Of a DNA stretch of 42,680 nucleotides, positions 20,069 to 42,680 are shown in pieces. Each line of letters starts with the position of its first letter. The first letter of the stretch is position 1. The notes beneath the pieces were generated by a model. It was not told where the DNA came from. It saw nothing but the letters and a program-made list of their open reading frames with translations, and did no database searches. Source of the DNA: an uncultured Clostridia bacterium (GTDB taxonomy: Bacteria; Bacillota; Clostridia; Lachnospirales; Lachnospiraceae); NCBI GenBank assembly GCA_948472945.1, contig CAOKVX010000021.1:1-42680 (forward strand). Direction: 5' to 3'. The position numbers were made by a program, and so were the translations under genes.

Positions 20069-21193
20069 CTACAGTCTTTTATCGAGAAACCTCATAACAG
20101 GTTTCTCGATAAGCCGGATTCTTGCCAAATCAATTAGCACGCATATTATGTAAACCCCCAAAACTGATAAAACTGCATGAATAGCAATCCACTCAGAATT
20201 ATATACTTCAACATTTCCCAATACATCCTGCCACAGCCATCGCCTCATAGTATCGCTGTTTGCATGAATCAGTAAAACCCCGACTGTCGTTGCGGCTATA
20301 TTGTTAATCCATTTTTTATACCCAATCCGCAGATTCTTGAAATACATAAAAGTTGCAACAGCGGAAAGCAACGCTAAAATCTTGTTGGAATCAGCTATAA
20401 AATAATAATATGCCGTCTTACCAAAACGACTGCTAAGCCATGTGCAGGCCACTACACTAACCCATGAAAGTATCAGACAGATTATTACAGCCAATCCCCA
20501 TACCTTATTATTGTCAAACCGTTTCTTAGGATACAGCCTCACATATGCCGCAATTATATAAACAATCATAAACCATCCTACGTAACCTACTTTTACATCT
20601 GCCATTAAAAAGGAAGGAAATACAGTATATACAAGGATACATAAACCTATAAGCCGTATATGTTGTCTCTCCTCCATCCCTTTTATCAATAAATTTAGAT
20701 ACGGAATAAACAGGAAAAATACCAAATATGACGACAAAAATTCTCTTCCGATTAAATTAACAGGCAACACTGCATTTACCATTTCAACAACCGAAAATTT
20801 ATTATATCCTGTTATAACAAAAGTAAAGTAAATAACTATGTTATAAAACTCTATTTCAAAAAGTAGTTTAAGAAACTTCTTAATAGTAATTTTCTGACTA
20901 CACATAAAATATCCAGTAATAAGTACAAAACAATTAATTGCATATTTACCGCCCCATCCGAAAATCAATAAAGATATTGAACGCATAGATAACATATTAT
21001 AGGATATCTCTTCTAATAATCCAGAATTCACAACATAATGATGCGCAATAATTGTCAGCATCATTATAATACGCAGTAATTCAATTCCCGATTGCCGACC
21101 AGAAATATTAGTATGCTCTGCTCTGCTCTGCTCTGCTCTGCTCTGCTCTGCTCTGCTCTGCTCTGCTCTGCTAAAATTATTCTTTTTCTCCAT
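20069..21193 (-). CDS. Phase-variable membrane O-acyltransferase (acyltransferase-3 family)
   Basis: This 374-residue frame, read from ATG 21193, starts MEKKNNF, then runs through a Ser-Arg-Ala-Glu-Gln repeat (about residues 8-27). A typical acyltransferase-3 domain follows, with about ten membrane helices. The helix-1 signature GIELLRIIMMLTIIAHHYVV has the conserved Arg and catalytic-type His. A VLLIHANSD segment near residue 310 and a final basic tail (KPVMRFLDKRL) also fit. The family transfers acetyl or other acyl groups to cell-surface sugars. The repeat is encoded by eleven 5-bp units, so unit loss or gain changes frame; the sequenced state is ON. A second ATG lies 5 nt upstream. It is the last gene of the polysaccharide operon, coupled to the aminotransferase. 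Confidence 0.88.
   Translation of the reverse strand: MEKKNNFSRAEQSRAEQSRAEQSRAEHTNISGRQSGIELLRIIMMLTIIAHHYVVNSGLLEEISYNMLSMRSISLLIFGWGGKYAINCFVLITGYFMCSQKITIKKFLKLLFEIEFYNIVIYFTFVITGYNKFSVVEMVNAVLPVNLIGREFLSSYLVFFLFIPYLNLLIKGMEERQHIRLIGLCILVYTVFPSFLMADVKVGYVGWFMIVYIIAAYVRLYPKKRFDNNKVWGLAVIICLILSWVSVVACTWLSSRFGKTAYYYFIADSNKILALLSAVATFMYFKNLRIGYKKWINNIAATTVGVLLIHANSDTMRRWLWQDVLGNVEVYNSEWIAIHAVLSVLGVYIICVLIDLARIRLIEKPVMRFLDKRL
20079..20112. terminator. 14-bp perfect hairpin at convergent gene ends
   Basis: TTATCGAGAAACCT and AGGTTTCTCGATAA pair perfectly around CATAAC. It lies 27 nt after the thioredoxin stop, inside the last codons of the convergent acyltransferase gene. There is no strong T-run on either strand, so it may act as a weak terminator or an mRNA-stabilising hairpin. 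Confidence 0.45.
21114..21172. repeat. Pentanucleotide microsatellite, 11 units, inside the acyltransferase start
   Basis: GCTCT (AGAGC on the coding strand) is repeated eleven times without error from 21115 to 21169, with partial units on both sides. The tract begins about 20 nt after the start codon at 21193. Five is not a multiple of three, so each unit gained or lost shifts the frame. The repeat itself contains no stop in any frame of the coding strand. Confidence 0.97.
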
Positions 21194-21209
21194 GACATGT
21201 CAATACCCC

Positions 21210-22316
21210 TTATCTAATTTTTTCTAAAATAATATTACATATCCTGTCAACCTCTTCCAGCGGCAAATCGGCATACAGCGGCAGGGTCAGCACACGTTTT
21301 GCAATATGCAGCGCCATCGGTGTTTTATCAACATCAAACTTTCCATTAAAACAGGCAAATGTATTAGTAAGCGGATAAAAATATTTTCTTGAAAAGATTC
21401 CATGCTCTGCCAGCCTGTCCGCAATCTCATTTCTGCTGAATCCAAAAACTTTCTCGTCAAATACCACCGGAAAATACGCATAATTAGGCTTCACGTTTTC
21501 CTGTACAGGATTTATCTTAATTCCTTCTACCATTCCAAGGCGCTTCCTGTAATGTTCTATGACTTTCCCTCTCTTAGCTATTTCCTCATCAATATGTCGC
21601 AAATTACAGATTCCCATTGCCGCCTGAAATTCATTCATTTTAGCGTTTGCCCCGACACCTTCTACAACCTCAGGTCCATGAATACCAAAATTTTTTAAAT
21701 CATATATTCTGTTTCCCAATTCCTTGTCCCTAAAACATACCGCTCCACCCTCAATTGTATTGAAAGTCTTTGTGGCATGAAAACTAAAGCACGACGCATC
21801 ACCAAAGGAACCAATTCCCTGTCCTTTATATGTCTCCCCAAAAGTATGGGCTGCGTCGTATATAACCTTTAATCCATATTTTCTTGCAATACGTTCAATT
21901 TCCTCCACATTACAGATATTCCCGTATACATGAACAGGAACAATGGCACTTGTCCTGTCCGTAATCAAACTTTCCAGCATACCAACATCAATCGTGTAAC
22001 TGTCTGTATCAATATCACAAAATACTGGCGTCAGTCCATTGCGGACAATTGCATGCGTAGTAGATGCAAATGTAAACGGCGTCGTAATCACTTCTCCTGT
22101 GAGATTCATCGCCTGAAGGGTAAGCTCTAAAGCCATATGTCCGTTAGTCAAAAGCTCAATATTTTCTACGGACAAATATTCCTTTAACTCACTCTGCAGC
22201 TGCCTATGCTTTTTACCCATATTGGTGAGCCAGTGTGTGTCCCACAAATCTCTAATTTCATCTATGTACTCCTCCATATCCGGCATGGAAGAGCGTGTTA
22301 CTAAAATTTCGTTCAT
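21210..22316 (-). CDS. DegT/DnrJ/EryC1 sugar aminotransferase
   Basis: This 368-residue PLP enzyme shows the family landmarks TTPFTFASTTHAIVRNGL, VIYDAAHTFG (Asp contacting PLP) and SFHATKTFNTIEGG (the Lys that binds PLP, about residue 184). It also has the late segment YAYFPVVF. DegT enzymes transfer an amino group to a nucleotide-linked keto sugar. The matching dehydratase or keto-sugar source is not in the window and must be supplied from elsewhere in the genome. AAAGAGG precedes the ATG. The stop lies 11 nt before the first possible start of the acyltransferase, whose ribosome-binding site overlaps it. The product may be the amino sugar the acyltransferase acts on, but this is inference. 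Confidence 0.9.
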   Translation of the reverse strand: MNEILVTRSSMPDMEEYIDEIRDLWDTHWLTNMGKKHRQLQSELKEYLSVENIELLTNGHMALELTLQAMNLTGEVITTPFTFASTTHAIVRNGLTPVFCDIDTDSYTIDVGMLESLITDRTSAIVPVHVYGNICNVEEIERIARKYGLKVIYDAAHTFGETYKGQGIGSFGDASCFSFHATKTFNTIEGGAVCFRDKELGNRIYDLKNFGIHGPEVVEGVGANAKMNEFQAAMGICNLRHIDEEIAKRGKVIEHYRKRLGMVEGIKINPVQENVKPNYAYFPVVFDEKVFGFSRNEIADRLAEHGIFSRKYFYPLTNTFACFNGKFDVDKTPMALHIAKRVLTLPLYADLPLEEVDRICNIILEKIR

Positions 22317-22360: not shown

Positions 22361-23821
22361 TTACAATACCTTGGACATGTAATATGATGTATTCGAAGCA
22401 TTACCTGTAACACTATATCCATGCGCCTTATAAAAACCGATTGCATTAATGTTATCCATCCTTACTTCCAGTGAAAATTGCTTCATTCCAAGTTCTTTTG
22501 CTTCTTTTTCAGCTGTACATAGAAGCTTTTCTCCCAATTTCAGACCTCTGCAGTCACTCTTTACTGCAAGCAAAGTCAGATACGCCGTCTTCTTTTCCTT
22601 ATCATTCATATATGCGGCAAGTATTCCATTACACCCTCCATTTGGATTAACCCCACCATACAGCTGTCCATGACAGAAGATTTTCTCCGCATACGCATCT
22701 ATATCAATATGAAGCTCGCTTAATGTTGGTGTTAACTGCTTTTCAAACACCGATACCAGTTCCTTCACTTTTCCCAAATCTGAACATTTTTCTATTTTAA
22801 TATCCTGTTCCGGATATAGCCTGACAAGATTTATATCTTTATGCGACATAACATTTATACGTTCCCGCAGCGTCTCTTTTTCTACAATCTCGCCTTTTAG
22901 CCACTTTACAATGGCCAACGGCAAATTTACGCCCGCCATATAACTAAACGGATACCCTCCTCCAAAACGCGCGTTCATTTCCAGCACATAACAATTTCCA
23001 TCCACAATAAATACATCTGTGTCAAGATTGGCAACATGATGGAGCATTCCGCTTAATTTCTGACCGAGTTCTTTTAATTCCTGACAGTCAACTGTCGATG
23101 CACAGTCCGTTTCACCGGAACGCATTGCATATTTTATCTTTGCAATAGTCGTCACATAATCTCCATCGAGGTTGTTTATAACATCTAATCCATACTCCTG
23201 CCCATGCAACTTCTCCTGAATAAGTACACACCTTTCAAAATCTTCCTTTGATTCGTATTTCAAATATGTTTTTTTAATGTTACGCTTTGCTTTATTATAA
23301 AATATGTTTAACTCTTCCTCATTTTCCGCCTCAAATATAGCGAGCGAACCCATGCCCCAACGGGGTTTAACCATTACCGGATATTTTGTTTCCCCGGAAG
23401 CTATACTTTTTACCGCTTCATCCACATCAAGAAATGATCTCGGGGCATTAATTCCATTTTGAACAAGAAATTGGTATGTCTTCCATTTATCATTACAAAT
23501 ATCAATTACATATGGGTCAGATACAAGCACCCTGACACCTATTTCTTCAAAACACGCCTTATTTTTTGACAAAACAGGGAGGTCGACATCAAACAGGGAA
23601 ATAATAGCTTTAATATCTTTTTCCATACAATACTCTAGCAAAAATGGAATATAATTATCATCATAAATTAATGGAGTTACAAAAGAATAATCTGCAACTT
23701 GAAATGCTGGCGATATATCTGAAGAATTAGCAACATGTACCTCGCCCGCTCCATTTAAAGCGTCTTTAAAATATTTTACTAAATAACTTCTTCTTCCAAC
23801 TGAAGTAAGCAATACATTCAT
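22361..23821 (-). CDS. ATP-grasp ligase fused to a GNAT N-acetyltransferase
   Basis: The start at 23821 (MNVLLTSVGRRSYLV) has GGAGA at good spacing; the product is 486 residues. Residues about 1-320 form an ATP-grasp enzyme of the carbamoyl-phosphate-synthase-like type. They show a Rossmann-like opening, the ATP-binding strand YPVMVKPRWGMGS, QEKLHGQEYGLDV, and the metal-binding segment VLEMNARFGGGYPFSYM. Residues about 335-486 form a GNAT acetyltransferase with LLAVKSDCRGLKLGEKLL (acetyl-CoA loop) and the ending NINAIGFYKAHGYSV. ATP-grasp enzymes join a carboxylate to an amine through an acyl-phosphate, and GNATs acetylate amines. The fusion suggests two steps on one small substrate, with the neighbouring decarboxylase supplying or using it. 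The substrate is unknown. Confidence 0.88.
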   Translation of the reverse strand: MNVLLTSVGRRSYLVKYFKDALNGAGEVHVANSSDISPAFQVADYSFVTPLIYDDNYIPFLLEYCMEKDIKAIISLFDVDLPVLSKNKACFEEIGVRVLVSDPYVIDICNDKWKTYQFLVQNGINAPRSFLDVDEAVKSIASGETKYPVMVKPRWGMGSLAIFEAENEEELNIFYNKAKRNIKKTYLKYESKEDFERCVLIQEKLHGQEYGLDVINNLDGDYVTTIAKIKYAMRSGETDCASTVDCQELKELGQKLSGMLHHVANLDTDVFIVDGNCYVLEMNARFGGGYPFSYMAGVNLPLAIVKWLKGEIVEKETLRERINVMSHKDINLVRLYPEQDIKIEKCSDLGKVKELVSVFEKQLTPTLSELHIDIDAYAEKIFCHGQLYGGVNPNGGCNGILAAYMNDKEKKTAYLTLLAVKSDCRGLKLGEKLLCTAEKEAKELGMKQFSLEVRMDNINAIGFYKAHGYSVTGNASNTSYYMSKVL

Positions 23822-23832
23822 AGTACATCTCC

Positions 23833-25032
23833 TCATAACAGTTTTAATAGTTCAATATTCTTATCTCTAACCATACGGCAATTATTATTTTCTCTTACAT
23901 ATACCCTTGGCGGCAGATTAATAAAACAGGAATTGAAACCCATAGTATATGCACCAGCACAGTCAAATCGCAGAACATCTCCCGGCAATAATTCTTTTCC
24001 ATTCATTATGGAGGCAAATCTATCGTTTTCCATGCATGTTGAGCCAGCAATTATCTGCCTGTCAACTATTTTTCTTTCTGCATCATAAAATTTATAATCT
24101 ATTTCATACATTGCAGGCCGTTTGACCTGAAAAGGATTGATGTCCAAAGAAGAACCGTCTGTAGTCAAAACTACGGTGTCTCTTATTGTTCTTGTATTAA
24201 TAACCTTTGTATAATATACTACTGCAGTAGATATTAATGAAGCGCCAGGCTCTAAAATCAATGTAATATCAGCAGGATTTAATATTTCTTTCAATATGGA
24301 ACAAATCGTATTGCTATATTCACACAACTGTGGTTTTCCTGCCGAAAAACCATTCTTTCCATAGAAAAAGCCGCCTCCCACGTCAATATATTCTATCTCG
24401 TTTGACAAAACCAAACTCTTTATCAACTCAACTGTCTTTCGAGACAGCTGCTCATATATTTTAATACTCCTTGATTTTGAACTATAATGTAAATGAAATC
24501 CGCTTATTTTTATATTATTTTCATGCAGTATTTCTATTGCTTTATTTAAATCACCATTTTCTATACAAAATCCAAATCTGCTGACATCTACTCCCGCTGT
24601 TGTTTCTCCTGGACATAATGCTTCTAAATCAAAATTAATTCTCAATCCTATTTTTGCCCGAAGCTTTTCAGAAATAATATCTTGCTGCAAAATCCATTCA
24701 ATTTCACTAAAATTATCTAAATTAATTATGGCATCCGATTTTAACGCTTCCATAAACTTCTCTCTTGACTTTTGTGGACCGTTAAATATAATCTTTGACG
24801 GTTTATATCCGACGCTCTCCGCTTGGTCATACTCGTCGTCAGAAACCACTTCCGCATACATCCCCAAACTGTCTGCAAGCTTTAAAAACCCCAAAGTATT
24901 ATTTGTCTTTACAGAATAACCAAATATAATGTTCTCACTCCAACTAGCAGAAAAAGCTTTCTTAAACTGCTCCAGATTTTTTTTAAATATATCTGCATCT
25001 ATAACATAACACGGAGTTAATAGATTACTCAT
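23833..25032 (-). CDS. Fold-type III PLP amino-acid decarboxylase (LysA/ODC superfamily)
   Basis: This 399-residue protein has the barrel-type decarboxylase landmarks: PLP lysine in IIFGYSVKTNN (about residue 42), GLRINFD, HLHYSSKS, YIDVGGGFFYG (phosphate-binding glycines), LILEPGASL and the late cysteine motif GSTCMENDRF. The family includes diaminopimelate, ornithine and arginine decarboxylases. HLHYSSKS replaces the usual HIGSQ-type segment, so the substrate may differ from DAP. It ends in a 4-nt overlap with a possible upstream ATG of the ATP-grasp/GNAT gene, pointing to tight coupling. A lysA for lysine synthesis would not be expected inside a polysaccharide operon, so a role in making an amine for surface decoration is more likely. 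Confidence 0.82.
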   Translation of the reverse strand: MSNLLTPCYVIDADIFKKNLEQFKKAFSASWSENIIFGYSVKTNNTLGFLKLADSLGMYAEVVSDDEYDQAESVGYKPSKIIFNGPQKSREKFMEALKSDAIINLDNFSEIEWILQQDIISEKLRAKIGLRINFDLEALCPGETTAGVDVSRFGFCIENGDLNKAIEILHENNIKISGFHLHYSSKSRSIKIYEQLSRKTVELIKSLVLSNEIEYIDVGGGFFYGKNGFSAGKPQLCEYSNTICSILKEILNPADITLILEPGASLISTAVVYYTKVINTRTIRDTVVLTTDGSSLDINPFQVKRPAMYEIDYKFYDAERKIVDRQIIAGSTCMENDRFASIMNGKELLPGDVLRFDCAGAYTMGFNSCFINLPPRVYVRENNNCRMVRDKNIELLKLL

Positions 25033-25056
25033 AAATTTTACAACCTCCCAATGACC

Positions 25057-26493
25057 CTATATTCCCGTCTTTTTCTTTCCCAATAATCCTAAAATATAAA
25101 GAAAACTATCCAATTTAAACACCCACGACAAACCGATATAAATAATTATTCCAAAAACAACTTGTAAAACCAGAGTAAGCACCAAATAAAAGCCTGCAAA
25201 CTGAATACACCACACGAATCCGCCCATGATTAATGAAATGATAATGGATGGAAAAATGTCTTTCAACTGTTCTACATAACTGTACTCCAATAATTTTTTA
25301 TTGGGCCACGAATTAATAATCTGACTAATAGTATTGGTTATCAGCATACTGTATGCCATAACAAGAGGACCAAACCACATGGTTGCCAAAAGTACCGCCA
25401 TTCCCATCAGCTTTTTTATAACCTCTAGCTTTAGAAACAAATCGCTCCTCCCAAGCGCCTTTATTGCGTTCAGATTTGCTGTGTGTATAGGCCAAAAAGC
25501 ATAGGTAACACAAAATATCCTCAAAAAAGGCACACACGAAAGCCACTTTTCCGTCAAAATCAGCCGCACCAACGGTTCTGCAACAACAGCCATTCCTATC
25601 ATCAGCGGCCACATAATATAACTGCTTATAGTGATTGCTCTTCTTGTCATAGATTTTATATGAACCTTGTCCTCCTGCACGGCAGACATTGTAGGAAACA
25701 GTACGCTGTCTATGGATATATTAATGTTATTAACAAATAAACTCGGAAATTTCTGTCCCTGATTATAGTAAGCCAAATCATCTGCACTGTATTTTTTCCC
25801 AATAATAAGCTGACGCAGATTGTTATATATCGTATCAATAAGCGACGACACCAAAAGCTTCCAACCAAAAGAAAACAATCCCTTAATCCTTGCAATAGAA
25901 AAGTTAAGTTTGGGCCGCCACTTTACTGTAACCCATAGCACACATGTATCAACAAATACGTTAAATACCTGCTGCGCAACCAAAGCCCATACACCAAAAC
26001 CACGATATGCCATTATAATTCCAAGCACAGCCGCCCCAATTGTTCCAGCCAAAGTGGAAAAGAAAAATCTCTTGAACTGCATTGTTCTAGAAACATATGC
26101 CTGCTGCACATTTTTGAGTCCTGATATCACAATAGTAAGGCTGAGTACCCGCATCACCATTGAAAGCTCCGGCATTTTATAAAATTTCGCTATCAGCGGA
26201 GAACAGACAAACATAATTCCGTATAGTGCAAGACAGATAATCATATTGCAGTAAAATACAGAAGAAAAATCCAAATCATCCGCATCTTTTTTCTGAATAA
26301 GCGCATTACCAAATCCGCTGTCCACAAAAACATTAAGAATCAGAATAAATACATTCAGCAGAGCAATTGTTCCATAGTCGGACGGCAACAAGAGTCTTGC
26401 CAATATAACGGAAACAATAAAATTAACAGCCTGCGCTCCACATCTTTCTGCGAAGCGCCATATAAAATTTGAGAAAATACTATTATTTTTCAT
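25057..26493 (-). CDS. Wzx-type polysaccharide flippase (MOP/PST family)
   Basis: This 478-residue protein is almost wholly hydrophobic, with about twelve to fourteen membrane helices. The N-terminal phrase FIVSVILARLLLPSDYGTIAL is typical of the PST/Wzx group. A central segment LLVSSLIDTIYNNLRQLIIG and YYNQGQKFPSLF also match this family. It flips lipid-linked repeat units across the membrane for Wzy to polymerise. It starts 2 nt after the stop of the GT2 gene. Its place between glycosyltransferases and modification enzymes supports a Wzx/Wzy-dependent pathway. Confidence 0.9.
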   Translation of the reverse strand: MKNNSIFSNFIWRFAERCGAQAVNFIVSVILARLLLPSDYGTIALLNVFILILNVFVDSGFGNALIQKKDADDLDFSSVFYCNMIICLALYGIMFVCSPLIAKFYKMPELSMVMRVLSLTIVISGLKNVQQAYVSRTMQFKRFFFSTLAGTIGAAVLGIIMAYRGFGVWALVAQQVFNVFVDTCVLWVTVKWRPKLNFSIARIKGLFSFGWKLLVSSLIDTIYNNLRQLIIGKKYSADDLAYYNQGQKFPSLFVNNINISIDSVLFPTMSAVQEDKVHIKSMTRRAITISSYIMWPLMIGMAVVAEPLVRLILTEKWLSCVPFLRIFCVTYAFWPIHTANLNAIKALGRSDLFLKLEVIKKLMGMAVLLATMWFGPLVMAYSMLITNTISQIINSWPNKKLLEYSYVEQLKDIFPSIIISLIMGGFVWCIQFAGFYLVLTLVLQVVFGIIIYIGLSWVFKLDSFLYILGLLGKKKTGI

Positions 26494-26495
26494 AA

Positions 26496-27491
26496 TCAGT
26501 CTATCCCCAGCTTAATCTTTATCTTCCTGAATTTCTTCATACTTTTTATAATAAATCGAGTAAAGCGCGGCAATGAACAACCTAATTTAATTCTCATAAA
26601 ATACAATGTTCTTTTTAACAGTGGCAAACTCTTAATATAATCAATTATTTTTTTATCATTGAGAATCCCCTTATAATCTTCTAATTTAAATTTTATTACT
26701 AATTCATGTTTCACTATACATGCATTTATCGAAGTTTCATACGTAAAATTGCTCAATTCATTATACTTGCGAAGCATCCTGATAATTTTCTTTTCACACT
26801 CCACCCCATATTGGACATTTTCTTTACTCCGCCGACTCCATGAACCTTCAACATTTGCCCTATAAGCAGACATTACTTCTGAAAAACAATATGCATTCCC
26901 CTTGCCTGCCAAAAAAATCTGCAATGCATAATCTACCTCATATAAGCCTGTTTCATGAAATTGTCTGGCAAATTCTGCTTTTGTCAAAATACTGTTTGTT
27001 GCACAAAAACCTCCTCCGCTCAAAATAAACTTTTCGCAGGGAATTTCACAGCTGCTTTTTACGGTACTTATCACGCCCATATTTTTTTTATCTCTGTTAA
27101 CCTTCATCGCATTGTGTATACATATGGAACAATCATTATGCGATTCCATATAATCAACCTGTTTTTGAAGCTTGCTTGTATCAATCCAATAATCATCGCC
27201 TTCACAAATCGCAATATATTTCCCCCTCGCTTCCGGAAAGAGAAACGTACCCATTATCGGAACACCTTTGGAATATTGATTTTCAGACTGGTAAACAACC
27301 TTAATTTTATCCGGATAAAGTGTTTCATACTCTTTCAATATCTGTCTGGTACCATCGGTTGATACATCATCATGAACTATAATCTCAAATTCAAAGTTTG
27401 TTATCTGTTCCAAAAAACTATTTAATGCATCTTTTATATAATTCTCATGATTATATGTAATACATACAATGGTAACCATTATTTTATTCAT
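26496..27491 (-). CDS. GT2 family glycosyltransferase
   Basis: The start at 27491 (MNKIMVTIVCITYNHENYI) has TGGAGG upstream and lies 1 nt after the stop of the polymerase gene; the product is 331 residues. The GT-A fold landmarks are VTIVCITYNHENYIKDAL at the N-terminus, EIIVHDDVSTDGT (first Asp pair) and CEGDDYWIDTSKLQKQ (the DxD-like metal site). The C-terminal about 100 residues are basic and helical. It adds a sugar to the lipid-linked repeat unit on the cytoplasmic face. Donor and linkage cannot be read from sequence. Confidence 0.9.
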   Translation of the reverse strand: MNKIMVTIVCITYNHENYIKDALNSFLEQITNFEFEIIVHDDVSTDGTRQILKEYETLYPDKIKVVYQSENQYSKGVPIMGTFLFPEARGKYIAICEGDDYWIDTSKLQKQVDYMESHNDCSICIHNAMKVNRDKKNMGVISTVKSSCEIPCEKFILSGGGFCATNSILTKAEFARQFHETGLYEVDYALQIFLAGKGNAYCFSEVMSAYRANVEGSWSRRSKENVQYGVECEKKIIRMLRKYNELSNFTYETSINACIVKHELVIKFKLEDYKGILNDKKIIDYIKSLPLLKRTLYFMRIKLGCSLPRFTRFIIKSMKKFRKIKIKLGID

Positions 27492-27492
27492 C

Positions 27493-28803
27493 CTATGCCT
27501 CCATTCTATCATTTACTCTTTCTCTATATCCCTTAAAAGCCCGTACGTTTTTTCTCTTGCAATGATTTCCTATAATTAATGCCGCATAATACAGCATCTG
27601 CCATAAAGTAAGATTATCAATATCAGGGACTGCAATAATTAACGCAACTATTACTGCACAGAGCGAAACCATAATGGCAGAACATTCTTTATTCTCCCGA
27701 AAAGTATACAGCTTCCATAGCAAGATTCCCAAAAACAGAATAAGAACTACCGAACCTGCCATCCCTAGTTGTGCAGGTACAGAATAGTACAAGCTTGAAG
27801 CCCGGACACATCTGTACCCTGCTCCCCACACCGGGGAATCCAAAAACATTTCATACGCCCACTCATTCCAATTGTGCCTTGTTACTGCTGAACCTGTTTC
27901 CCCCTTGGAGAAAATAACCATATTAAGCCAAGTAATTAATGTTCCCATTGCAGTCAAAAGCGACACAGCCGCTATTCCTATAGGTATCAAATACTTTAAT
28001 GCCTTTTTGTTACTCGAAAAAATAAGATATATTACACCGCCAATTGCAAACGCACCATATGCTGTCGAAGAAAACGAAAGTAATATTTCCAACACCAATA
28101 CAATACAGACTACTCTTATATAACCTTTATTACGGTTAATAGTTATATTGTAGTAAAATGCTGCCACTAAAAAAACACCGCAATAACTTGGCTCCATAAA
28201 TGTTGAGAATAATCTAGGGTAATAACTATACCAATAATAAGCAGACTGAGTATCTGGTGTATATAAGAAAGTTTCCCAAAAAACATTGCGCGACAGTATA
28301 TTTGTTGTCACTAAAAATTGTAACAGACCTATTACCATAACAAATATACTGATTTTTTCAAATATACTCGTAATATCATCTGTTGTAAGCCTACTTCCGC
28401 TGCTCCACATGGAAACAAAACAAACCATATATATAACCAATTGTAACAAAAGCAGGTACCATGTATCTGAATATACAATACCTAAAACATTTTTCTTTTT
28501 AGAGACTAAAATTACAATACAAAACGCAGCTAACAGAAAGATTTCAACATAAAATACTTTATTCCGTCTCGAAAATGACAATTTAAATTCCTTCCAAAAT
28601 GCAGAATGTACCACTGCCCATACAATCATAGCAAAACATGTAGGTATTTGAGGACCCACTCCCTGACCATTTATTAAGAAAACTGACGAAGCCTGAAATA
28701 CCATCGAAAATAATGTCATAGTTATCATATATTTTGCGTTCTTTTGAATAAAGACACAAATTAATGTCAAAATCCAAACATAGCCAAAAATTGTAATACT
28801 CAT
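27493..28803 (-). CDS. Wzy-like polysaccharide polymerase
   Basis: This 436-residue protein has about eleven to twelve membrane helices. A large loop follows the middle helices (YSYYPRLFSTFMEPSYCGVF, then LSFSSTAYGAFAIGG). That arrangement, with conserved aromatic, Arg and Ser/Gly residues facing the outside, is typical of Wzy/O-antigen ligase-like polymerases. Sequence conservation in Wzy is poor, so the call rests on topology and on its position between GT4, GT2 and Wzx. It joins repeat units after flipping. Its start codon follows the GT4 stop directly. Confidence 0.82.
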   Translation of the reverse strand: MSITIFGYVWILTLICVFIQKNAKYMITMTLFSMVFQASSVFLINGQGVGPQIPTCFAMIVWAVVHSAFWKEFKLSFSRRNKVFYVEIFLLAAFCIVILVSKKKNVLGIVYSDTWYLLLLQLVIYMVCFVSMWSSGSRLTTDDITSIFEKISIFVMVIGLLQFLVTTNILSRNVFWETFLYTPDTQSAYYWYSYYPRLFSTFMEPSYCGVFLVAAFYYNITINRNKGYIRVVCIVLVLEILLSFSSTAYGAFAIGGVIYLIFSSNKKALKYLIPIGIAAVSLLTAMGTLITWLNMVIFSKGETGSAVTRHNWNEWAYEMFLDSPVWGAGYRCVRASSLYYSVPAQLGMAGSVVLILFLGILLWKLYTFRENKECSAIMVSLCAVIVALIIAVPDIDNLTLWQMLYYAALIIGNHCKRKNVRAFKGYRERVNDRMEA

Positions 28804-28804
28804 A

Positions 28805-29896
28805 TCAAGCCTCCAAATATATCTTTCGCAGCCTATTGGCTTCCTGTTCTATTCCATATCCACAGCTTGCAATACTTTCACATGCCGCTTTTGACTTTAT
28901 ACTTCTGTTTTGTATATCCGTCCGAACCGTTTCCTTAGCCCAATGTTCTACAGGCAATTGCAGACTAATATACTTAATGTTATCGCTGACCTTTGTCTCT
29001 GACGGAACAGTATCAGAAACAATGCACGGTAATCCCGATGCCTGTGCTTCTATCACAGCCATTCCCAAACCTTCAGCCAACGAAGGAAAAACAAACACAT
29101 CCATAGCTGCTAAAAATGGTACTGTATCACTTTGCATTCCAACAAAAATACAGCTTTCCTCTATATTCAGAGCCCGCGTTTGTTCCATAAGATTATCTTT
29201 CAGTTGTCCGCCTCCTACTATTAACAGCTTAGCTTTTGTTTTAAACTTTATTATTTCCGCAAATACATTAATTAAAAAAACATGATTCTTTCCATGATTT
29301 AATTTTCCAACGGTTCCTATTACATAGTCATCTTCATCTATACTATATTTCCTGCGGCATTGCTTTCTTAATTCCTCCCGAAAACGATAATGACTTGTAT
29401 CTATTGCGTTATTTAAAACTATAAATTTATTCTTCTTATACAGGTACTGACCGGACGCATCTGATACAGAAATGCGATCTGTAATCAATTTATTAAAAAT
29501 TGGATATAAAAATGTATGCAATAAAGTATGCTGATTACCACAGCTATGCACATGTACAATACGCTTTCTAATTCCCGCCATAAAAGCAGGCAAAAGTTCA
29601 AATGTCATAGTTGCACTATTTCCATGAATATGAATCACATCATATTCTTCTCTTTTTAACAGTTGATACAGTGCTTTCATATAACTAAATATTTTTTTCT
29701 TTCTGCTTGGAAGCTGAATATATTGACTGTTACTTTTGTTTATCTCATCAGCCAACGGTTGCAGCGCTACATTACACGAGGCAAAATCTATATGAAGTCC
29801 AGTCTTGTCCATTGCTCTGTAATAATTCATCGCTACAGTTGCAAGTCCTCCCCACGGCACAAAACCGGTTGTAATAACAATTAGTATTTTTGTCAT
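28805..29896 (-). CDS. GT4 family glycosyltransferase
   Basis: This 363-residue GT-B enzyme has the opening TGFVPWGGLATVAMNYYRAM with the family's Gly-rich loop. It also shows YDVIHIHGNSATM, IGTVGKLNHGKNHVFLI and the donor-site block VFVFPSLAEGLGMAVIEAQA with the E-x7-E pattern, followed by SGLPCIVSD. It is a retaining transferase of the capsule/exopolysaccharide type, using a nucleotide sugar that cannot be named from sequence. AGGAG precedes the ATG. The gene lies between tagD-like and wzy genes. Confidence 0.92.
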   Translation of the reverse strand: MTKILIVITTGFVPWGGLATVAMNYYRAMDKTGLHIDFASCNVALQPLADEINKSNSQYIQLPSRKKKIFSYMKALYQLLKREEYDVIHIHGNSATMTFELLPAFMAGIRKRIVHVHSCGNQHTLLHTFLYPIFNKLITDRISVSDASGQYLYKKNKFIVLNNAIDTSHYRFREELRKQCRRKYSIDEDDYVIGTVGKLNHGKNHVFLINVFAEIIKFKTKAKLLIVGGGQLKDNLMEQTRALNIEESCIFVGMQSDTVPFLAAMDVFVFPSLAEGLGMAVIEAQASGLPCIVSDTVPSETKVSDNIKYISLQLPVEHWAKETVRTDIQNRSIKSKAACESIASCGYGIEQEANRLRKIYLEA

Positions 29897-29925
29897 CCGA
29901 CATTCACTCCTACTTCCGTCAAACT

Positions 29926-30357
29926 CTATTCTTTTGATTTCAGTTCTTCTTTAATCTGTGTTGTCGATATACCTTGCGTGTATGGCAGATATTCAATACT
30001 AACTCCCAGTCCAGAAAACTGTTCTTCCGTTTTTTTATAACGCTCAGAGCCTTTCCAGTCATCACCTGAAAACAACACGTCAAATTTAAATCTTTCTAAA
30101 GCCAGCATTTTATCATCTATTTCAGCTAACGATATCGACGAAACTTCGTCAACACATTTCAAAGCTCCGATAATTCTAATACGTTCTTCCTCTGAATAAA
30201 CAGGATTTTTTTTCTTTACCTGTGTAACATAATCATCTCCGCAGACTGCTACAATTAAATACTCACACTGTTTTTTACATCGTTCTAAAAGATTCAGATG
30301 TCCAACATGGAACAAGTCAAATACTCCTGTTGTAAATCCAACTTTATATTTTTTCAT
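29926..30357 (-). CDS. TagD-like cytidylyltransferase
   Basis: This 143-residue protein has the nucleotidyltransferase signature VGFTTGVFDLFHVGHLNLLE (GxFD-x3-HxGH) at residues 6-25, and later PVYSEEERIRIIGALKCVD and a final YLPYTQGISTTQI (the ISTT loop). These are the marks of glycerol-3-phosphate cytidylyltransferases such as TagD, which make CDP-glycerol from CTP and glycerol-3-phosphate. A related polyol-phosphate or ethanolamine-phosphate substrate is possible. The neighbouring TagB/TagF-like gene would use the product, so together they would add glycerol-phosphate to the polysaccharide. SD GGGGGAAA precedes the ATG. Confidence 0.9.
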   Translation of the reverse strand: MKKYKVGFTTGVFDLFHVGHLNLLERCKKQCEYLIVAVCGDDYVTQVKKKNPVYSEEERIRIIGALKCVDEVSSISLAEIDDKMLALERFKFDVLFSGDDWKGSERYKKTEEQFSGLGVSIEYLPYTQGISTTQIKEELKSKE

Positions 30358-30392
30358 AATATTTCCCCCAATTGATAGATTATGGACAGTTT

Positions 30393-31550
30393 TTATTCCA
30401 AATGAATACCGCTCAATTTAACAATCCGTTCACAATTACAACTGTCCTGATATTTAAAAACTTTATCTCTAACCAATTTTCTCTTATCACTATAGCAATC
30501 GACACCATTCGCAAAATCACGTATAAATTTCTCAAACTCATCCTGTGTTTTAATAATATGTCCAGCCATATATTCTTCAGGATTTTCAAATTCAAATCCC
30601 CTTTTTTCTCTATATTCATCAATATCTGGTATTACAAACGCCTCTGGCTTATCAGTCAGCAAATATTGTAATGACGCTGACGAATAATCACCTATTAAAC
30701 CATCTGCCTGCGCCATTAAGTTATATAATTCATATCCCCTTGCCTGAAAATCCTGATGGGTTAATATTTCAAGATTAGAATATATATACTCATGGTTTTT
30801 CTGCAGATTTTGTGCAGGATGTAATTTTACAATCAACTTTATGTCATACTCCTTAAGCATATCATTTAACCGTTCATATGCTTCTTCCGGAAACAAGGGT
30901 ACAACATCCTGAATTGACGTATCATTATATCCCAAATAATCTGATTGCCTAAAAGTCGGCAGCCACAACAATACTTTTGAAAAATCCCCAAAATAATATT
31001 TTTTTTCACATTCAAACAAACCGTCCAGCATAGCGTCTCCTGCAACAACAATCTGACTTTCTTTGCAGGCAAACTCCTGTACCATTATTGGTATATACAA
31101 TTCTGACGATGCAATCATATAAGTAAAATAATTTTCATTTCCATTATTTATTTTCGTTAATTTCCCACTTGTTTTATAGTTGGCATTTCCATGTCTTAAA
31201 TGTATAACAACCTGCTGCCTCGACGGCTTCACCGGAATCTGCCCGGTTGTATAAAATACATGTTTTGAAATCAAAAAATATAATATAGATTTAAATTTAC
31301 CTATATATTTCACCCTTTCATCTGACTCAGCGTATTTCATACTCTCAATCCCACAAATTATTTTATTGTTATTATCGTAAGAATGATTTAGTAAATACTT
31401 TTTTAGGGGAACCAGACTGTGACAGATTCCATGATTAGCAGAATAAAGCAATATATAATCGTCCCTTTTCGGAACAATCTTATTTATTCCACTGAATAAT
31501 GGTGAAATAGTGTTTTTTATCACTTTTTTTATCTTTATATTTTTAAGCAT
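30393..31550 (-). CDS. CDP-glycerol glycerophosphotransferase-like protein (TagB/TagF)
   Basis: The start at 31550 (MLKNIKIKKVIKNT) has GGAAGGTG upstream; a TTG two codons earlier is possible. The product is 385 residues. The family pattern is visible: YILLYSANHGICHSL, HVFYTTGQIPVKPSRQ, VVIHLRHGNANYKTSG, VLLWLPTFRQSDYLG, LIVKLHPAQNLQKN and the C-terminal LIGDYSSASLQYLL (Ser-rich nucleotide site) with DIDEYREKRGF. The classic enzymes move glycerol-phosphate from CDP-glycerol to a wall teichoic acid acceptor. Here one such enzyme beside one TagD suggests a single glycerol-phosphate side group or linkage rather than a long teichoic chain. The acceptor is unknown. Confidence 0.88.
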   Translation of the reverse strand: MLKNIKIKKVIKNTISPLFSGINKIVPKRDDYILLYSANHGICHSLVPLKKYLLNHSYDNNNKIICGIESMKYAESDERVKYIGKFKSILYFLISKHVFYTTGQIPVKPSRQQVVIHLRHGNANYKTSGKLTKINNGNENYFTYMIASSELYIPIMVQEFACKESQIVVAGDAMLDGLFECEKKYYFGDFSKVLLWLPTFRQSDYLGYNDTSIQDVVPLFPEEAYERLNDMLKEYDIKLIVKLHPAQNLQKNHEYIYSNLEILTHQDFQARGYELYNLMAQADGLIGDYSSASLQYLLTDKPEAFVIPDIDEYREKRGFEFENPEEYMAGHIIKTQDEFEKFIRDFANGVDCYSDKRKLVRDKVFKYQDSCNCERIVKLSGIHLE

Positions 31551-31569
31551 AGACAAGCACCTTCCGATT

Positions 31570-32061
31570 TTATAGCTCCTCCACCAGTTTCTCCAATCTT
31601 TCGTTAAATTCTTTATTTGAACTGTAATTCCTTATTTCTTTTTGTTTACAAATTTCAGCATATCCCAAAATAACATCCTGCAGCGTATTTACATCTTCCA
31701 CCACAATAATATTTCCCATGCGTTCTTCTACTGCTTTGCAAAAGTCTAGCTGATGGTCATTTACATGTTCTTCATACTTCTTCTGTCTGGGAACCACTAT
31801 AGGAATTTTCCCAATTTGCAAAGGGGCAATAAAACTGGCAGGACCTCCGTGGGTAATAACAATCTCTGCCTTTTTTATATTGGCTTCCATATTTTCATAA
31901 GAAATTAGTTTGCTCCATTTGCAATGCTTCGGTTCATACGTGGAAAATCCTGTCTGCATAACAACTGCATCCCTGATAACTCCGTCGCCCTTTAACCGGT
32001 CTATTTCCTGTATTAAACGATTAAACTGCTGCTCATGCGTTCCCACCGTTACAAATATCAT
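31570..32061 (-). CDS. Alg13/PssE-like glycosyltransferase catalytic subunit
   Basis: This 163-residue protein is the C-terminal half of a GT28-type enzyme. It opens MIFVTVGTHEQQFNRLIQEI and has VVMQTGFSTYEP, EIVITHGGPASFIAPLQIGK (nucleotide-sugar site) and IVVPRQKKYEEHVNDHQLDF. This is the pattern of Alg13, EpsF/PssE and Cps14G. These proteins act only together with an Alg14/PssD membrane partner, encoded by the preceding gene. The pair usually adds the second sugar to the lipid-linked primer. AGGAG precedes the ATG. Confidence 0.92.
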   Translation of the reverse strand: MIFVTVGTHEQQFNRLIQEIDRLKGDGVIRDAVVMQTGFSTYEPKHCKWSKLISYENMEANIKKAEIVITHGGPASFIAPLQIGKIPIVVPRQKKYEEHVNDHQLDFCKAVEERMGNIIVVEDVNTLQDVILGYAEICKQKEIRNYSSNKEFNERLEKLVEEL

Positions 32062-32111
32062 AGTATACTCCTAACTCTGCTGACACGCCTGCTCTCAGAC
32101 AGCAAAATAAA

Positions 32112-32561
32112 TCAAAATATGCTTCCCAAATTTATCGCCTTAGGATATACCTGTTTCATTTCCTCCCACTGGACAATAAATTTATCTGAAATCCGATACA
32201 CCAATTTCCCAGTCATGGTTGGTTTATCAATTCTGTCAAACACTTCAATATAAATAAGCTTTTTTCCCATTAACTTAGCTATATAAAAAAACGGAACTGC
32301 CACCGCCGCTCCTGATGAAATAAGCAAATCCGGTTTTTCCTTTAATAAAACTTTTATTGCCAAAAATGTGTTTTTTATCAAATTTTTTATGTTACGATTT
32401 GTGGGGTAGTAACATGGATACACTTTTTCACCCTTTAACAGACTTCTTGCATCCTCCTTATCAAACGTAACCCAAAAATGTTCCTTTTCTTTCCAAAACG
32501 GTTTTAGCATATATAAATGCGTTAAATGTCCTCCGCTGGAACCCACCAAACATATCTTCAT
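32112..32561 (-). CDS. Alg14/PssD-like glycosyltransferase membrane subunit
   Basis: This 149-residue protein opens MKICLVGSSGGHLTHLYML, the Gly-rich loop of Alg14/PssD. It continues FWVTFDKEDARSLLKGE, LLISSGAAVAVPFFYIAKL and LIYIEVFDRIDKPTMTG. It anchors and recruits the Alg13-like subunit of the next gene to form an active transferase. The ATG follows AAGGAG. It is the first structural gene after loaP, separated by 79 nt that hold a small hairpin. Confidence 0.92.
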   Translation of the reverse strand: MKICLVGSSGGHLTHLYMLKPFWKEKEHFWVTFDKEDARSLLKGEKVYPCYYPTNRNIKNLIKNTFLAIKVLLKEKPDLLISSGAAVAVPFFYIAKLMGKKLIYIEVFDRIDKPTMTGKLVYRISDKFIVQWEEMKQVYPKAINLGSIF

Positions 32562-32594
32562 ATATCCGCTCCTTAATATGCCAAAATTCTAATC

Positions 32595-32611
32595 TAGTTA
32601 CCCCGCAACTA
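32595..32611 (-). ncRNA. Small hairpin between loaP and the first glycosyltransferase
   Basis: On the - strand TAGTT and AACTA pair around a GCGGGGT loop, in the short leader between loaP and the PssD-like gene. LoaP antiterminators act on RNA hairpins in the leaders of the operons they control, so this is a candidate. The stem is only 5 bp, so it could be chance. Confidence 0.25.
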
Positions 32612-32640
32612 CTGTTATGCTTTAACTACAATCTTTTTAA

Positions 32641-33150
32641 TTATGATTTCCTCACAATTTCAAGAGCAACCTGAGTCTGCCTGTTTTGCCCATAAAGAAG
32701 AAATTCAATTTTTGCAAGGCGTCTATGCCTGTCAACTTTCCGTATGCAGAAACTGCGCTGGCGAAGAGGACCTTCCTTTATATCAAATTCACCATTCACA
32801 ATATCCCCTCTTGATATACCGACTGTATCATTCATGTCCAAAAGCGAATCCAAAAACTGTTCCTCCTCAGGATATACCGGCACAAAATCTTTACCCGTGC
32901 ATACCGGAGAAGCTATTCTTGCAAGCGGCCCTGCCAAAATATCCTTAATTGGTTCCCCGTCGTCAGAATCAACTATTATATATCCGGGAAACAGTACCTG
33001 TCTCTCCTCATGCCATGCCCCCTGATATTTTTTCAATATAATGTACTTGGGAACAAAGATACGCCGGTAACTTCCGGCCGGAAACGCATGCTTACATTTT
33101 TCACACACTGATTCTTCCCTGCCAACCGCAGTTTGAATAATGTACCACAT
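32641..33150 (-). CDS. loaP: LoaP-type NusG paralog (antiterminator)
   Basis: This 169-residue protein has an NGN domain opening MWYIIQTAVGREESVCEKC, with YRRIFVPKYIILKKY and the NusG-type core QVLFPGYIIVDSDD. The linker carries the substitution-rich LAGPLARIASPV and YPEEEQFLDSLLD. The C-terminal KOW domain runs ISRGDIVNGEFDIKEGPLRQ to IEFLLYGQNRQTQVALEIV. The ordering and the Cys-rich start fit LoaP, the specialised NusG paralog that lets RNA polymerase read through terminators in long polysaccharide or polyketide operons of Firmicutes. It is the first gene of the operon here. GGAGG precedes the ATG. Confidence 0.88.
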   Translation of the reverse strand: MWYIIQTAVGREESVCEKCKHAFPAGSYRRIFVPKYIILKKYQGAWHEERQVLFPGYIIVDSDDGEPIKDILAGPLARIASPVCTGKDFVPVYPEEEQFLDSLLDMNDTVGISRGDIVNGEFDIKEGPLRQRSFCIRKVDRHRRLAKIEFLLYGQNRQTQVALEIVRKS

Positions 33151-40517: not shown

Positions 40518-42680
40518 TCATTTCACTTTTACCTTAACTTTCTTGAATATACCGTTCTGAGCGTAGACGTAAATGTTACATGTGCCTTTTGCCCTTGCCT
40601 TAATCTTACCTTTCTTTGTGACGGTTGCAATCTTTGTGTTAGTTGATTCATAACATATATTCCGATGACGCTTAATCTTCTTTGACTTTGATTTACTTAC
40701 CTCGCTTGCTTTGATTGTGAAAGACTTACCTTTCTTTATGACAGCTTTTTTCTTGTTAATCTTGACAGAAGCAGCATCTCCATATTTTCCACCATTAGTC
40801 ACGACATGAATGGTTTTTGATATCGCTATGCTAATCTTTTTGCCATCCACTATCTTGTAGGCACGCACGATATATTTGTAGAAAGTTGCTTTATCCTGTT
40901 TTTTCTGTTTAAAAGTTTTCGTGTTTCCGTTCTGGATAGTTTTAAGCAGCTTATATTTGTTTTTCCTTCCACACTTAGTTCCATAAACGAGGTAGCCATC
41001 GACTCCTTTTACTTTCTTCCATGTAAGCTTGATACTTTTATTGGAGCCTTTTCCCTTTGCCTGTAATTTGGCAAAGCTGGAACCTAACACATCGCCTTCC
41101 GACACAAGACTGAATATGGAGCTGTCTGTGACGAGGAGCGTATCGACCGGAACACCAAGTTCATTTGCAAGTGCCTGTATTTTTTCGGCGGTTTCTTTTG
41201 ATACCCCTAGTTCAGAAGCGATTTTTGCTATATTTTTGCTGTCAGTCCCCGGATTATTCACCGACTGGTCATGTACGTTTCCTATTGGTGTAGTTCCTCC
41301 CGGAGCAGGTGTGTCACCCGGTGTCAGTGTCACATCCGGCGTAGGTGATACATCCGGTGTCGCTGTTACTTCCGGTGTCGGTGTCACATCCGGTGTTGGT
41401 GTCACTCCCGGTGTTGGTGTCACTCCCGGTGTTGGTGTCACTCCCGGTGTCGGTGTCACTCCCGGTGTTGGTGTTACTCCCGGTGTCGGTGTTACTCCTG
41501 GTGTTGGTGTTACTCCTGGTGTTGGTGTTACATCTGGTGTCTCACTATCGCCATGAGTAATCCCAGCCGGGTCCGGGCTGACCCCTCCGATACCGGTAAG
41601 GTCTTTGTTTACTGTATCTGTCTGCTTGTAGTAGCCGGTTACAGAGTCGCTGTCCGGATTTTTGTTTCCACCTGCGATTGCTCCTGTTGTGCTGTTGTCC
41701 CCGTTTCCGGTAACATTTCCGGTGTTTATGCAGTTTTCAACGGTTCCGTTTTGTTCATTACTTCCGGTAATTCCTCCGGTGTTGTCTTCTCCCGTAACAT
41801 CTCCTGTGTTTGTGCTGTCGCTTATGTTTCCTTCATTGCTTCCGGCGATTCCCCCGGTGTTGTTTGTTCCGTTTACATCCCCGGTGTTGGTGCTGTTACT
41901 TATGTTTCCTTCATTACTTCCGGCGATTCCTCCGGTGTTGTCCTTTCCGGTTACGTCCCCGGCGTTGGTGCTGTCAATTATGGAAGCATTTTCGCCGTTT
42001 GAGCCGGCGATTCCTCCTACGTTACTGTTTCCCGTGACAGTGACCCTGCTGGTGCAGCCGATAATTTCGCCTTCGTTTCTTCCGGCAATTCCGCCCACGT
42101 AGTCATGTCCGGTAACCTGACCCTCTACCGTCAGGTTCTTTATTGTTCCTGTGTTGTAACCGAACAGGCCCACATTGTCCGCCGTAACATCGTTGATGTA
42201 GAGCCCCTTTATGGTGTGGCCGTTTCCGTCAAATATTCCCGCAAACGGATTGTTGTCCGTATCGCCCGTATAGGTGCCTATCGGTTTCCACTGGGACGTC
42301 TCGCTGCCGGACAGCTCAATGTCCGCCGTGAGCGTAAAATGTGTACCCTCAAAACTGTTTCCGGCATTTACCAAGTCACGGATTTTCTCCAAATCTTCCT
42401 TTGTGGCAATCTTGTATGGGTCTTCAACTGTTCCGCTTCCGGTAAATAATGTGTCTCCCGTACCGTGGGTAATTCCTTCCGGGTCCGGGCTGACCCCTCC
42501 GATACCGGTAAGGTCTTTGTTTACTGTATCGGTCTGCTTGTAGTAGCCGGTGACAGAGTCGCTGTCCGGGTTTTTGTTTTCTCCTGCGATTGCACCCGTT
42601 GTGCTGTTGTCCCCGTTTCCGGTAACATTTCCGGTATCGGTTACGTTTTCGATTCTTCCGCTCTGTTCATTGTTTCCGGC
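40518..42680 (-). CDS. GLUG-repeat surface protein, 5' end off the right edge
   Basis: The frame is open from the right edge to the stop at 40518, at least 720 residues; the start lies outside. The visible order is: a Gly/Asn-rich module; a segment EDPYKIATKEDLEKIRDLV; ISWI-like and GLUG repeats (NTGGIAGSNEGNIS and variants); a second copy of the Gly/Asn-rich module; a Thr/Pro linker of about a dozen PTPxV units; a helical patch; an FN3-like domain (LTWKKVKGVDGYLVYG); and a BIG2 domain ending in KVKVKVK. GLUG repeats are common in extracellular adhesins and surface proteins. No LPXTG-type sorting signal is present at the C-terminus, so attachment is by another route. Confidence 0.85.
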   Translation of the reverse strand, partial: AGNNEQSGRIENVTDTGNVTGNGDNSTTGAIAGENKNPDSDSVTGYYKQTDTVNKDLTGIGGVSPDPEGITHGTGDTLFTGSGTVEDPYKIATKEDLEKIRDLVNAGNSFEGTHFTLTADIELSGSETSQWKPIGTYTGDTDNNPFAGIFDGNGHTIKGLYINDVTADNVGLFGYNTGTIKNLTVEGQVTGHDYVGGIAGRNEGEIIGCTSRVTVTGNSNVGGIAGSNGENASIIDSTNAGDVTGKDNTGGIAGSNEGNISNSTNTGDVNGTNNTGGIAGSNEGNISDSTNTGDVTGEDNTGGITGSNEQNGTVENCINTGNVTGNGDNSTTGAIAGGNKNPDSDSVTGYYKQTDTVNKDLTGIGGVSPDPAGITHGDSETPDVTPTPGVTPTPGVTPTPGVTPTPGVTPTPGVTPTPGVTPTPGVTPTPDVTPTPEVTATPDVSPTPDVTLTPGDTPAPGGTTPIGNVHDQSVNNPGTDSKNIAKIASELGVSKETAEKIQALANELGVPVDTLLVTDSSIFSLVSEGDVLGSSFAKLQAKGKGSNKSIKLTWKKVKGVDGYLVYGTKCGRKNKYKLLKTIQNGNTKTFKQKKQDKATFYKYIVRAYKIVDGKKISIAISKTIHVVTNGGKYGDAASVKINKKKAVIKKGKSFTIKASEVSKSKSKKIKRHRNICYESTNTKIATVTKKGKIKARAKGTCNIYVYAQNGIFKKVKVKVK
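41310..41545 (-). repeat. 18-bp tandem repeat encoding a Thr-Pro linker
   Basis: About a dozen units of the type ACTCCCGGTGTTGGTGTC (coding PTPGVT) run through the gene. The middle units are nearly identical and the outer ones degenerate. The unit is a multiple of three, so copy-number change would alter linker length without breaking the frame. Confidence 0.9.
41556..41765 (-). repeat. Intragenic duplicated module, copy 1
   Basis: About 210 bp here match 42466-42680 almost base for base, at an offset of about 910 bp. Both copies encode TGAIAG, NPDSDSVTGYYKQTD and VNKDLTGIGGVSPDP. The second copy reaches the window edge. Confidence 0.85.
42466..42680 (-). repeat. Intragenic duplicated module, copy 2 (runs to window edge)
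   Basis: This is the partner of the module at 41556-41765. It differs by scattered single-base changes, for example SPDPEG in place of SPDPAG. The similarity probably continues past the edge. Confidence 0.85.

Follow-up and report, generated by a model that had tools for sequence, protein, structure and literature searches.

An AGAGC repeat tract at the start of a putative surface-glycan acyltransferase gene and its probable place in a promoter-anchored class of T-free repeats

A perfect pentanucleotide repeat at the end of a capsule-type operon

We analysed a 42,680-nt stretch of DNA from an uncultured Lachnospiraceae bacterium (hereafter the window) and identified a tandem AGAGC repeat in the 5' part of an acyltransferase gene (Table 1). 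This gene forms the end of a capsule-type run of minus-strand genes, at whose far end a LoaP/NusG-like protein is encoded (32641–33150; 123.3 bits for LoaP vs. a cut-off of 125). The remaining run comprises genes for ATP-grasp/GNAT, PLP decarboxylase, flippase-like, glycosyltransferase, Wzy-like, and CDP-glycerol glycerophosphotransferase-like proteins. The acyltransferase matched PF01757 over residues 36–353 of 374 (E = 9.5e-12, 45 bits vs. a cut-off of 31) and no NCBIfam family at 0.001; judged by the PF01757 match and the operon context, it looks like a surface-glycan O-acyltransferase. At the head of the operon, an imperfect inverted repeat of ~20 nt (33244–33264/33575–33594, two overlapping pairs) flanks ~310 bp of DNA, which comprise the stretch ahead of the LoaP-like gene and the 3'-terminal part of an Xer-like tyrosine recombinase gene. 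The segment 33244–33594 is a candidate invertible segment heading the capsule operon.

Table 1. Features around the AGAGC tract and in the capsule-type gene run of the window
Feature	Position	Strand	Source
Acyl_transf_3 (PF01757) acyltransferase, 374 aa, frame open through the tract from the ATG at 21193	20069..21193	(-)	
(AGAGC)11.8 simple sequence repeat	21114..21172	(-)	Tandem Repeats Finder
AATAAT, -10-like hexamer, ends 3 nt before the tract	21176..21181	(-)	
Start codon ATG2, in the acyltransferase frame with 11 units (arithmetically also with 8 or 14)	21191..21193	(-)	
Start codon ATG1, 5 nt upstream of ATG2	21196..21198	(-)	
TTGACA, -35-like hexamer, starts 31 nt upstream of the tract	21198..21203	(-)	
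GGGG, Shine-Dalgarno-like run, immediately behind the stop codon of the preceding gene	21206..21209	(-)	by eye
DegT/DnrJ/EryC1/StrS aminotransferase, directly upstream of the acyltransferase	21210..22316	(-)	
Remaining capsule/exopolysaccharide-type run	22361..33150	(-)	

Tandem Repeats Finder described the tract with a period of 5, 11.8 copies, 100% match, and a score of 118. Its coding-strand sequence is AGC(AGAGC)11 followed by a single A; seven codons (MEKKNNF) of the ORF that starts with ATG2 precede it, and it is translated as RAEQS repeats. Both the repeat analysis and the PF01757 match bear out the claim of an earlier note on this DNA that a perfect AGAGC tract lies inside an acyltransferase-3 frame. 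Because the coding strand of the tract is free of T, it contains no stop codon in any frame. The tract has the features that define a simple sequence repeat (SSR) contingency locus, namely a perfect tandem repeat, a unit that is not a multiple of three, and a position in the 5' coding region. Five or more perfect AGAGC units occurred at a single place in G000, the 2.68-Mb genome to which the window belongs (seven overlapping matches, one tract), from which (CAAG)7 and (GACA)7 were both absent. The unit count of the window's tract is that of one draft assembly and may not be exact.

Following the stop codon of the DegT-type gene, the coding strand presents GGGG, TTGACA, ATG2, a short A-rich stretch with AATAAT, and the tract, in this order, and the last base of TTGACA is the first base of ATG1. 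The distance to the GGGG run is 7 nt for ATG1 and 12 nt for ATG2. The earlier note had called the gene in frame (ON), which holds for ATG2; with 11 units, translation from ATG1 runs in another frame and yields a product of 44 aa. At 5 nt per unit, arithmetic puts ATG1 in frame with 10 or 13 units, and neither ATG with 9 or 12. The first in-frame ATG 3' of the tract is 50 nt on, behind an IELLRI stretch, and an intact enzyme thus needs translation through the tract. Gain or loss of AGAGC units would shift the frame, with the full enzyme made via ATG2 at 11 units, via ATG1 at 10 or 13, and not at all at 9 or 12. Three possible expression states can be deduced, i.e., enzyme from ATG2, enzyme from ATG1, or none.

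Repeat tracts in related genes, genomes, and viral contigs

The earlier note had proposed a slipped-strand switch from the non-triplet 5' repeat. Relatives support such switching on sequence grounds and in part, through unit-number differences, a homologue with a different repeat, and further repeat-bearing genes of the same family. A homologue in genome G038 (43% identity) has a G10 tract at the equivalent position, soon after its start, and a stop codon directly after the tract in that frame, i.e., it is OFF as sequenced; it is preceded by an aminotransferase-like C-terminus that by eye is similar to the DegT protein of the window. Three viral contigs have AGAGC tracts of 10 (L103), 24 (L116), and 9 (L108) units. 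The aligned flanks of L103 and L116 are 98.98% (2740 nt) and 98.4% (2181 nt) identical, with some 2 kb extra in L116 that begin ~110 nt upstream of the tract, and the aligned pieces of L108 are ~94–98% identical. Besides the window with its 11 units, four Acyl_transf_3 genes carry a tract at the 5' end, composed of AGAGC in L010 (Coprococcus comes, 15 units), L071 (8 units), and L129 (12 units) and of GACA in L441 (9 units). An acyltransferase homologue from the same genus (L019, genome G001) has a G9 run in the coding frame (2406–2414), which is open as sequenced.

Tracts were also found in other kinds of genes. An AMP-ligase gene (L069, assigned by Pfam) has 10 AGAGC units, and an AMP-ligase look-alike (L440, by eye) has 8 GACA units. 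Upstream of the AMP-ligase gene, L069 (genome G310) contains a second switch-like tract, (CAAG)9, after a Shine-Dalgarno-like site and an ATG. Seventeen GACA units are present in a methyltransferase-like gene (L432), and 14 units lie at the start of a gene for a protein with an N-terminal hydrophobic stretch (L128). Only the window and L128, two of the nine cellular gene-start cases, are in frame from a start codon at most 45 nt upstream, where a third would be expected by chance. Mid-gene GACA, AGAGC, or CAAG tracts occur in PAPS-reductase-like and C5 DNA methyltransferase genes (L104, L111, L257, L088, and other viral contigs); the frame of L104 is open through its 10 units, and that of L111 changes at its 11 units. 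GACA is found in or beside type I restriction specificity genes in L450 and L442 (Methylase_S) and, by resemblance only, in L436. A 90-aa piece of a phage methyltransferase had no match in the phages collection.

At the level of the family, 8 of 397 genomes had (AGAGC)6; the figures were 14 of 392 for the order and 3 of 398 for the phylum (overlapping draws). The reversed unit, which has the same composition and served as a control, had no match in any of these draws. (GACA)7 was commoner than AGAGC, with 20 of 216 genomes of the order, and was present in at least 120 stretches of viral contigs, while (CAAG)7 was detected in 3 of 250 genomes of the family. Three genomes from one other family of the order (G589, G603, G648) have many tracts, often at contig ends.

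Promoter matches at the tract start

Upstream of the tracts we observed a recurrent layout of TTGACA, 16–18 nt, a -10-like hexamer, 0–6 nt, and the tract. The window, with TTGACA-N16-AATAAT (11 of 12 consensus matches), fits the proposed class, in which TTGACA starts 29–35 nt upstream and the -10-like hexamer ends 0–6 nt before the tract. The window's promoter match is one of two in 600 bases, with an average of 2.1 in shuffles; by itself it is not significant, and the class carries the argument. TTGACA started 29–35 nt upstream in 21/31 AGAGC, 37/77 GACA, 7/36 CAAG, and 0/23 CAAT representatives. Nine 7-nt control windows between 36 and 98 nt upstream held 0–2 each, and shuffled sequences gave a mean of 0.06–0.25 and a maximum of 2. 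The exact hexamer was missing from this place in 10/31 AGAGC, 40/77 GACA, and 29/36 CAAG representatives, and it lay nearer to one CAAG tract (13 nt) and one CAAT tract (26 nt). When TTGAC was accepted anywhere 18–45 nt upstream, it preceded 43/77 GACA tracts (control position 1/76, opposite strand 6/85), 8/36 CAAG tracts (control 3/36), and 2/23 CAAT tracts (control 0/23). The best -10 match was found at a spacer of 16 or 17 in 55/73 cases (ties favour 17). Short AGAGC tracts of 5–6 units are without the motif (TTGAC in 1/14 representatives). At cellular GACA loci, TTGAC was in place at 11/21 tracts, and five of the ten misses are from one repeat-rich gene in L439. This locus (genome G096) has a long, degenerate array rich in GACA (RQTDRQAD repeats) in its coding sequence and lacks the promoter layout. 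In L449, TTGACT-N16-TATAAT is flush with the GACA tract.

The representatives were non-redundant and unselected for TTGACA, and L166–L205 were left out. Dropped were tracts with less than 60 nt of upstream sequence, with N or internal repeats in the upstream sequence, or with upstream 45 nt at least 70% identical to those of a kept tract, as well as AGAGC tracts of fewer than seven units and other tracts of fewer than six. The CAAG set (n = 36) consists of viral contigs and four cellular loci. An alternative count of 36/45 is biased, as it includes loci fetched with a TTGAC-anchored pattern. The counts are not independent trials because representatives share ancestry: among the 75 with an upstream frame of at least 60 aa, 31 form a PAPS-reductase-like cluster and 18 a methyltransferase cluster. 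In a narrower count (starts 32–36 nt upstream), TTGAC was present in 17/31, 3/18, and 2/5 members of the three larger clusters, the first two being the PAPS-reductase-like and methyltransferase clusters.

The spacing between promoter match and tract recurs in unrelated genes, in leaders, at gene starts, and mid-gene. The hexamer is read as ttg-aca (LT) or ctt-gac-a (LD) in PAPS-reductase-like genes, as att-gac-a (ID) in methyltransferases, and as ttg-aca within LLTF in a specificity-subunit-like gene. In the homologous methyltransferases L084 and L088 it is formed by different codons, and the distances to the tract agree within 1 nt. In L270 and L278 the tract starts nearer the KYL motif, and TTGACG lies correspondingly further upstream, in gtt-gac-gga. 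In three tract-less homologues (L220–L222; Dulem virus 39 methyltransferase, bajarodino virus 16 reductase, Ruminococcus phage reductase) TTGACA is absent from the matching position. Dulem virus 39 comes within one base of it, with TTGATA at the position that TTGACA occupies in L084, and in bajarodino virus 16 a TTGACA follows 52 nt further downstream. Genes of one kind may bear GACA in one viral contig and AGAGC or CAAG in another. Given the varied codon phases and the swapped units, it is the promoter match that stays more constant, and the repeat unit is exchangeable. We propose that T-free repeats of 4–5 nt (GACA, AGAGC, and some CAAG) form a putative class, present in genomes of this order and in viral contigs, that begins within ~6 nt past the -10 element of a sigma70-type promoter match, which places the predicted transcription start in the first repeat unit. 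The earlier note had viewed the window's tract as a coding tract; it is one, but not an isolated case, as repeats of its class start at sigma70-type promoter matches both within genes and in non-coding leaders. The idea of a function tied to AGAGC itself was rejected, because its architecture is shared by GACA and some CAAG tracts. The reading of GGAG..TTGACA..ATG as a mere ribosome site with start codon was likewise rejected in general, since family f5 has GTG, TTG, or no start codon and the motif also occurs mid-gene.

The locus could be an ordinary coding contingency locus of the Haemophilus/Neisseria type, with the promoter-like sequence arising by chance in AT-rich Clostridia DNA. The frame arithmetic works without a promoter, the window match alone is within chance, and most CAAG tracts are without TTGACA, yet chance would hardly produce the sharp TTGACA peak at 29–35 nt in AGAGC and GACA tracts, across varied codon phases and in non-coding leaders too, and we hold this explanation to be improbable. 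An assembly artefact, in the tract as such or in its number of units, is very unlikely: draft assemblies are involved, and contigs of G304, G315, G589, G603, and G648 start or end within such tracts, but the window's tract is internal to a 42.7-kb contig with the frame open on both sides, and related contigs carry such tracts independently.

In the leader class, which comprises genes for signal-peptide surface proteins and family f5 genes, the repeat is the first part of the 5' leader and the promoter can serve the gene. The promoter may be selected for expression and the repeat act as a length-variable 5' leader (rheostat), the coding cases being by-products. This agrees with the arrangement of the leaders, where the promoter is followed by the tract, then by a T-run or a terminator-like hairpin, and finally by a gene that has a Shine-Dalgarno site of its own, and with runs of at least four T within 34 nt after the tract in 19/20 leader-type vs. 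2/9 coding-type cases (hand-chosen). However, the promoter match lies mid-gene in methyltransferase and PAPS-reductase-like genes of viral contigs, at gene starts the transcript would lose the start codon, and the fold z-scores of the leader type are weak and mixed (+0.92 to -3.72); as the general explanation, a rheostat is rather unlikely but a fair rival. Repeat-armed terminators after leader tracts, where T-runs are common, are a suggestion in view of these z-scores. Alternatively, GAG triplets 2 nt apart could be a binding site of a TRAP (MtrB)-type attenuation protein. TRAP sites consist of (G/U)AG triplets 2–3 nt apart, a pattern that GAGCA repeats fit, and the leaders bear terminator-like hairpins. 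PF02081 (TrpBP) was nevertheless found in none of 18 genomes, including G000 and 17 with AGAGC tracts, under a search that recovered the Bacillus subtilis control, and GACA and CAAG tracts share the architecture without having GAG triplets; TRAP binding is extremely unlikely. Among 17 related loci other than the window, Rfam at the gathering score gave no match over tract or leader and only a T-box and tRNA elsewhere in L103. Seven loci of families f5 and f16 (L190, L193, L195, L196, L199, L201, L206) have similar post-tract leaders before unrelated genes, which by eye consist of a CCTAAACTCCGCCTTTTTGTC-like sequence followed by a terminator-like hairpin; L190, L193, L195, L199, L201, and L206 had no Rfam match there.

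We regard the window's tract as a slipped-strand contingency locus within the promoter-anchored class of T-free repeats, with transcription initiation as the proposed driver of slippage (probability about 0.7). The transcript predicted from the window's promoter match lacks ATG1 and ATG2, and where a coding-class transcript has no start codon, gene expression cannot be the purpose of the promoter. We infer that transcription initiation drives tract instability. RNA polymerase that opens and starts inside the repeat would make it unstable, in the leader and coding classes alike, and where the promoter is unable to serve the expression of its own gene it would drive mutability instead. The open bubble, and purine-rich RNA re-annealing in any register as an R-loop, would lead to slippage during replication. 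The three associated units (GACA, AGAGC, CAAG) are T-free, which keeps every frame open and makes the RNA U-free, purine-rich, and suited to R-loops. CAAT, which contains T, showed no association, as a single control unit whose hosts may differ. Tentatively, and with less than even odds, a sigma70 promoter firing into a T-free repeat may be a hypermutation device of Lachnospiraceae-like gut Clostridia and viral contigs, i.e., a transcription-coupled contingency locus that seeds and expands whichever of GACA, AGAGC, or CAAG lies at the start site, in genes as in leaders, via R-loops or slipped strands in the initiation bubble. If so, repeat instability would be tied to promoter activity and could be regulated.

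Relation to described switches

Coding pentanucleotide switches near the 5' end are known from the opa genes of Neisseria, which the window resembles in repeat length and position and from which it differs in unit and protein. In the lic genes of Haemophilus, several start codons in different frames lie upstream of the tract. The window has a comparable arrangement, from which graded states would be expected; its unit and host are different, and its states are deduced from sequence only. An O-acetyltransferase gene of Haemophilus influenzae, oafA, is switched ON and OFF by a GCAAn tract (PMC6479036). Like the window, oafA has a non-triplet SSR in a surface O-acetyltransferase-type gene; unlike the AGAGC tract, its unit is a tetranucleotide and its setting Gram-negative lipooligosaccharide. 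Promoter-adjacent repeats are described for Helicobacter sabA, where a T-tract tunes expression as a rheostat (PMC4081817), and, by a title cited in the same paper, for Moraxella uspA2, where a promoter-proximal tetranucleotide acts as a rheostat. The sabA tract lies beside the -35 element, whereas repeats of the window's class start just past the -10 match and often inside a coding frame.

In the accessible text of a 2025 review of phase variation (PMC11868660), the places on Clostridia deal with promoter inversion and with the CmrRST system of Clostridioides difficile and say nothing of repeats, and pentanucleotide, Firmicutes, and transcription(al) start are all unmentioned. Our literature search covered open-access papers, with most subscription papers outside its scope. 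Within it, we found nothing relevant on AGAGC phase variation, no SSR phase variation in Lachnospiraceae, no pentanucleotide-repeat phase variation of an acyltransferase, and no description of transcription-start-anchored repeats in Clostridia, in agreement with the earlier note's remark that such coding switches are rarely described in gut Clostridia. Repeat-switched surface O-acetylation and promoter-adjacent rheostats are thus known already, and repeat tracts that begin at a promoter match were not found described in these sources, some of them accessible in part. Our results suggest that repeat switches of one family act in gut Clostridia and viral contigs, with surface acyltransferases, AMP ligases, type I specificity subunits, DNA methyltransferases, and PAPS-reductase-like genes as targets. 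With the spacing to the promoter match fixed, it can be tested directly whether transcription is linked to localized hypermutation. Elsewhere in the window, a long open frame (41297–41982) contains tandem repeats with periods of 18, 36, and 54 bp and of 78 bp.
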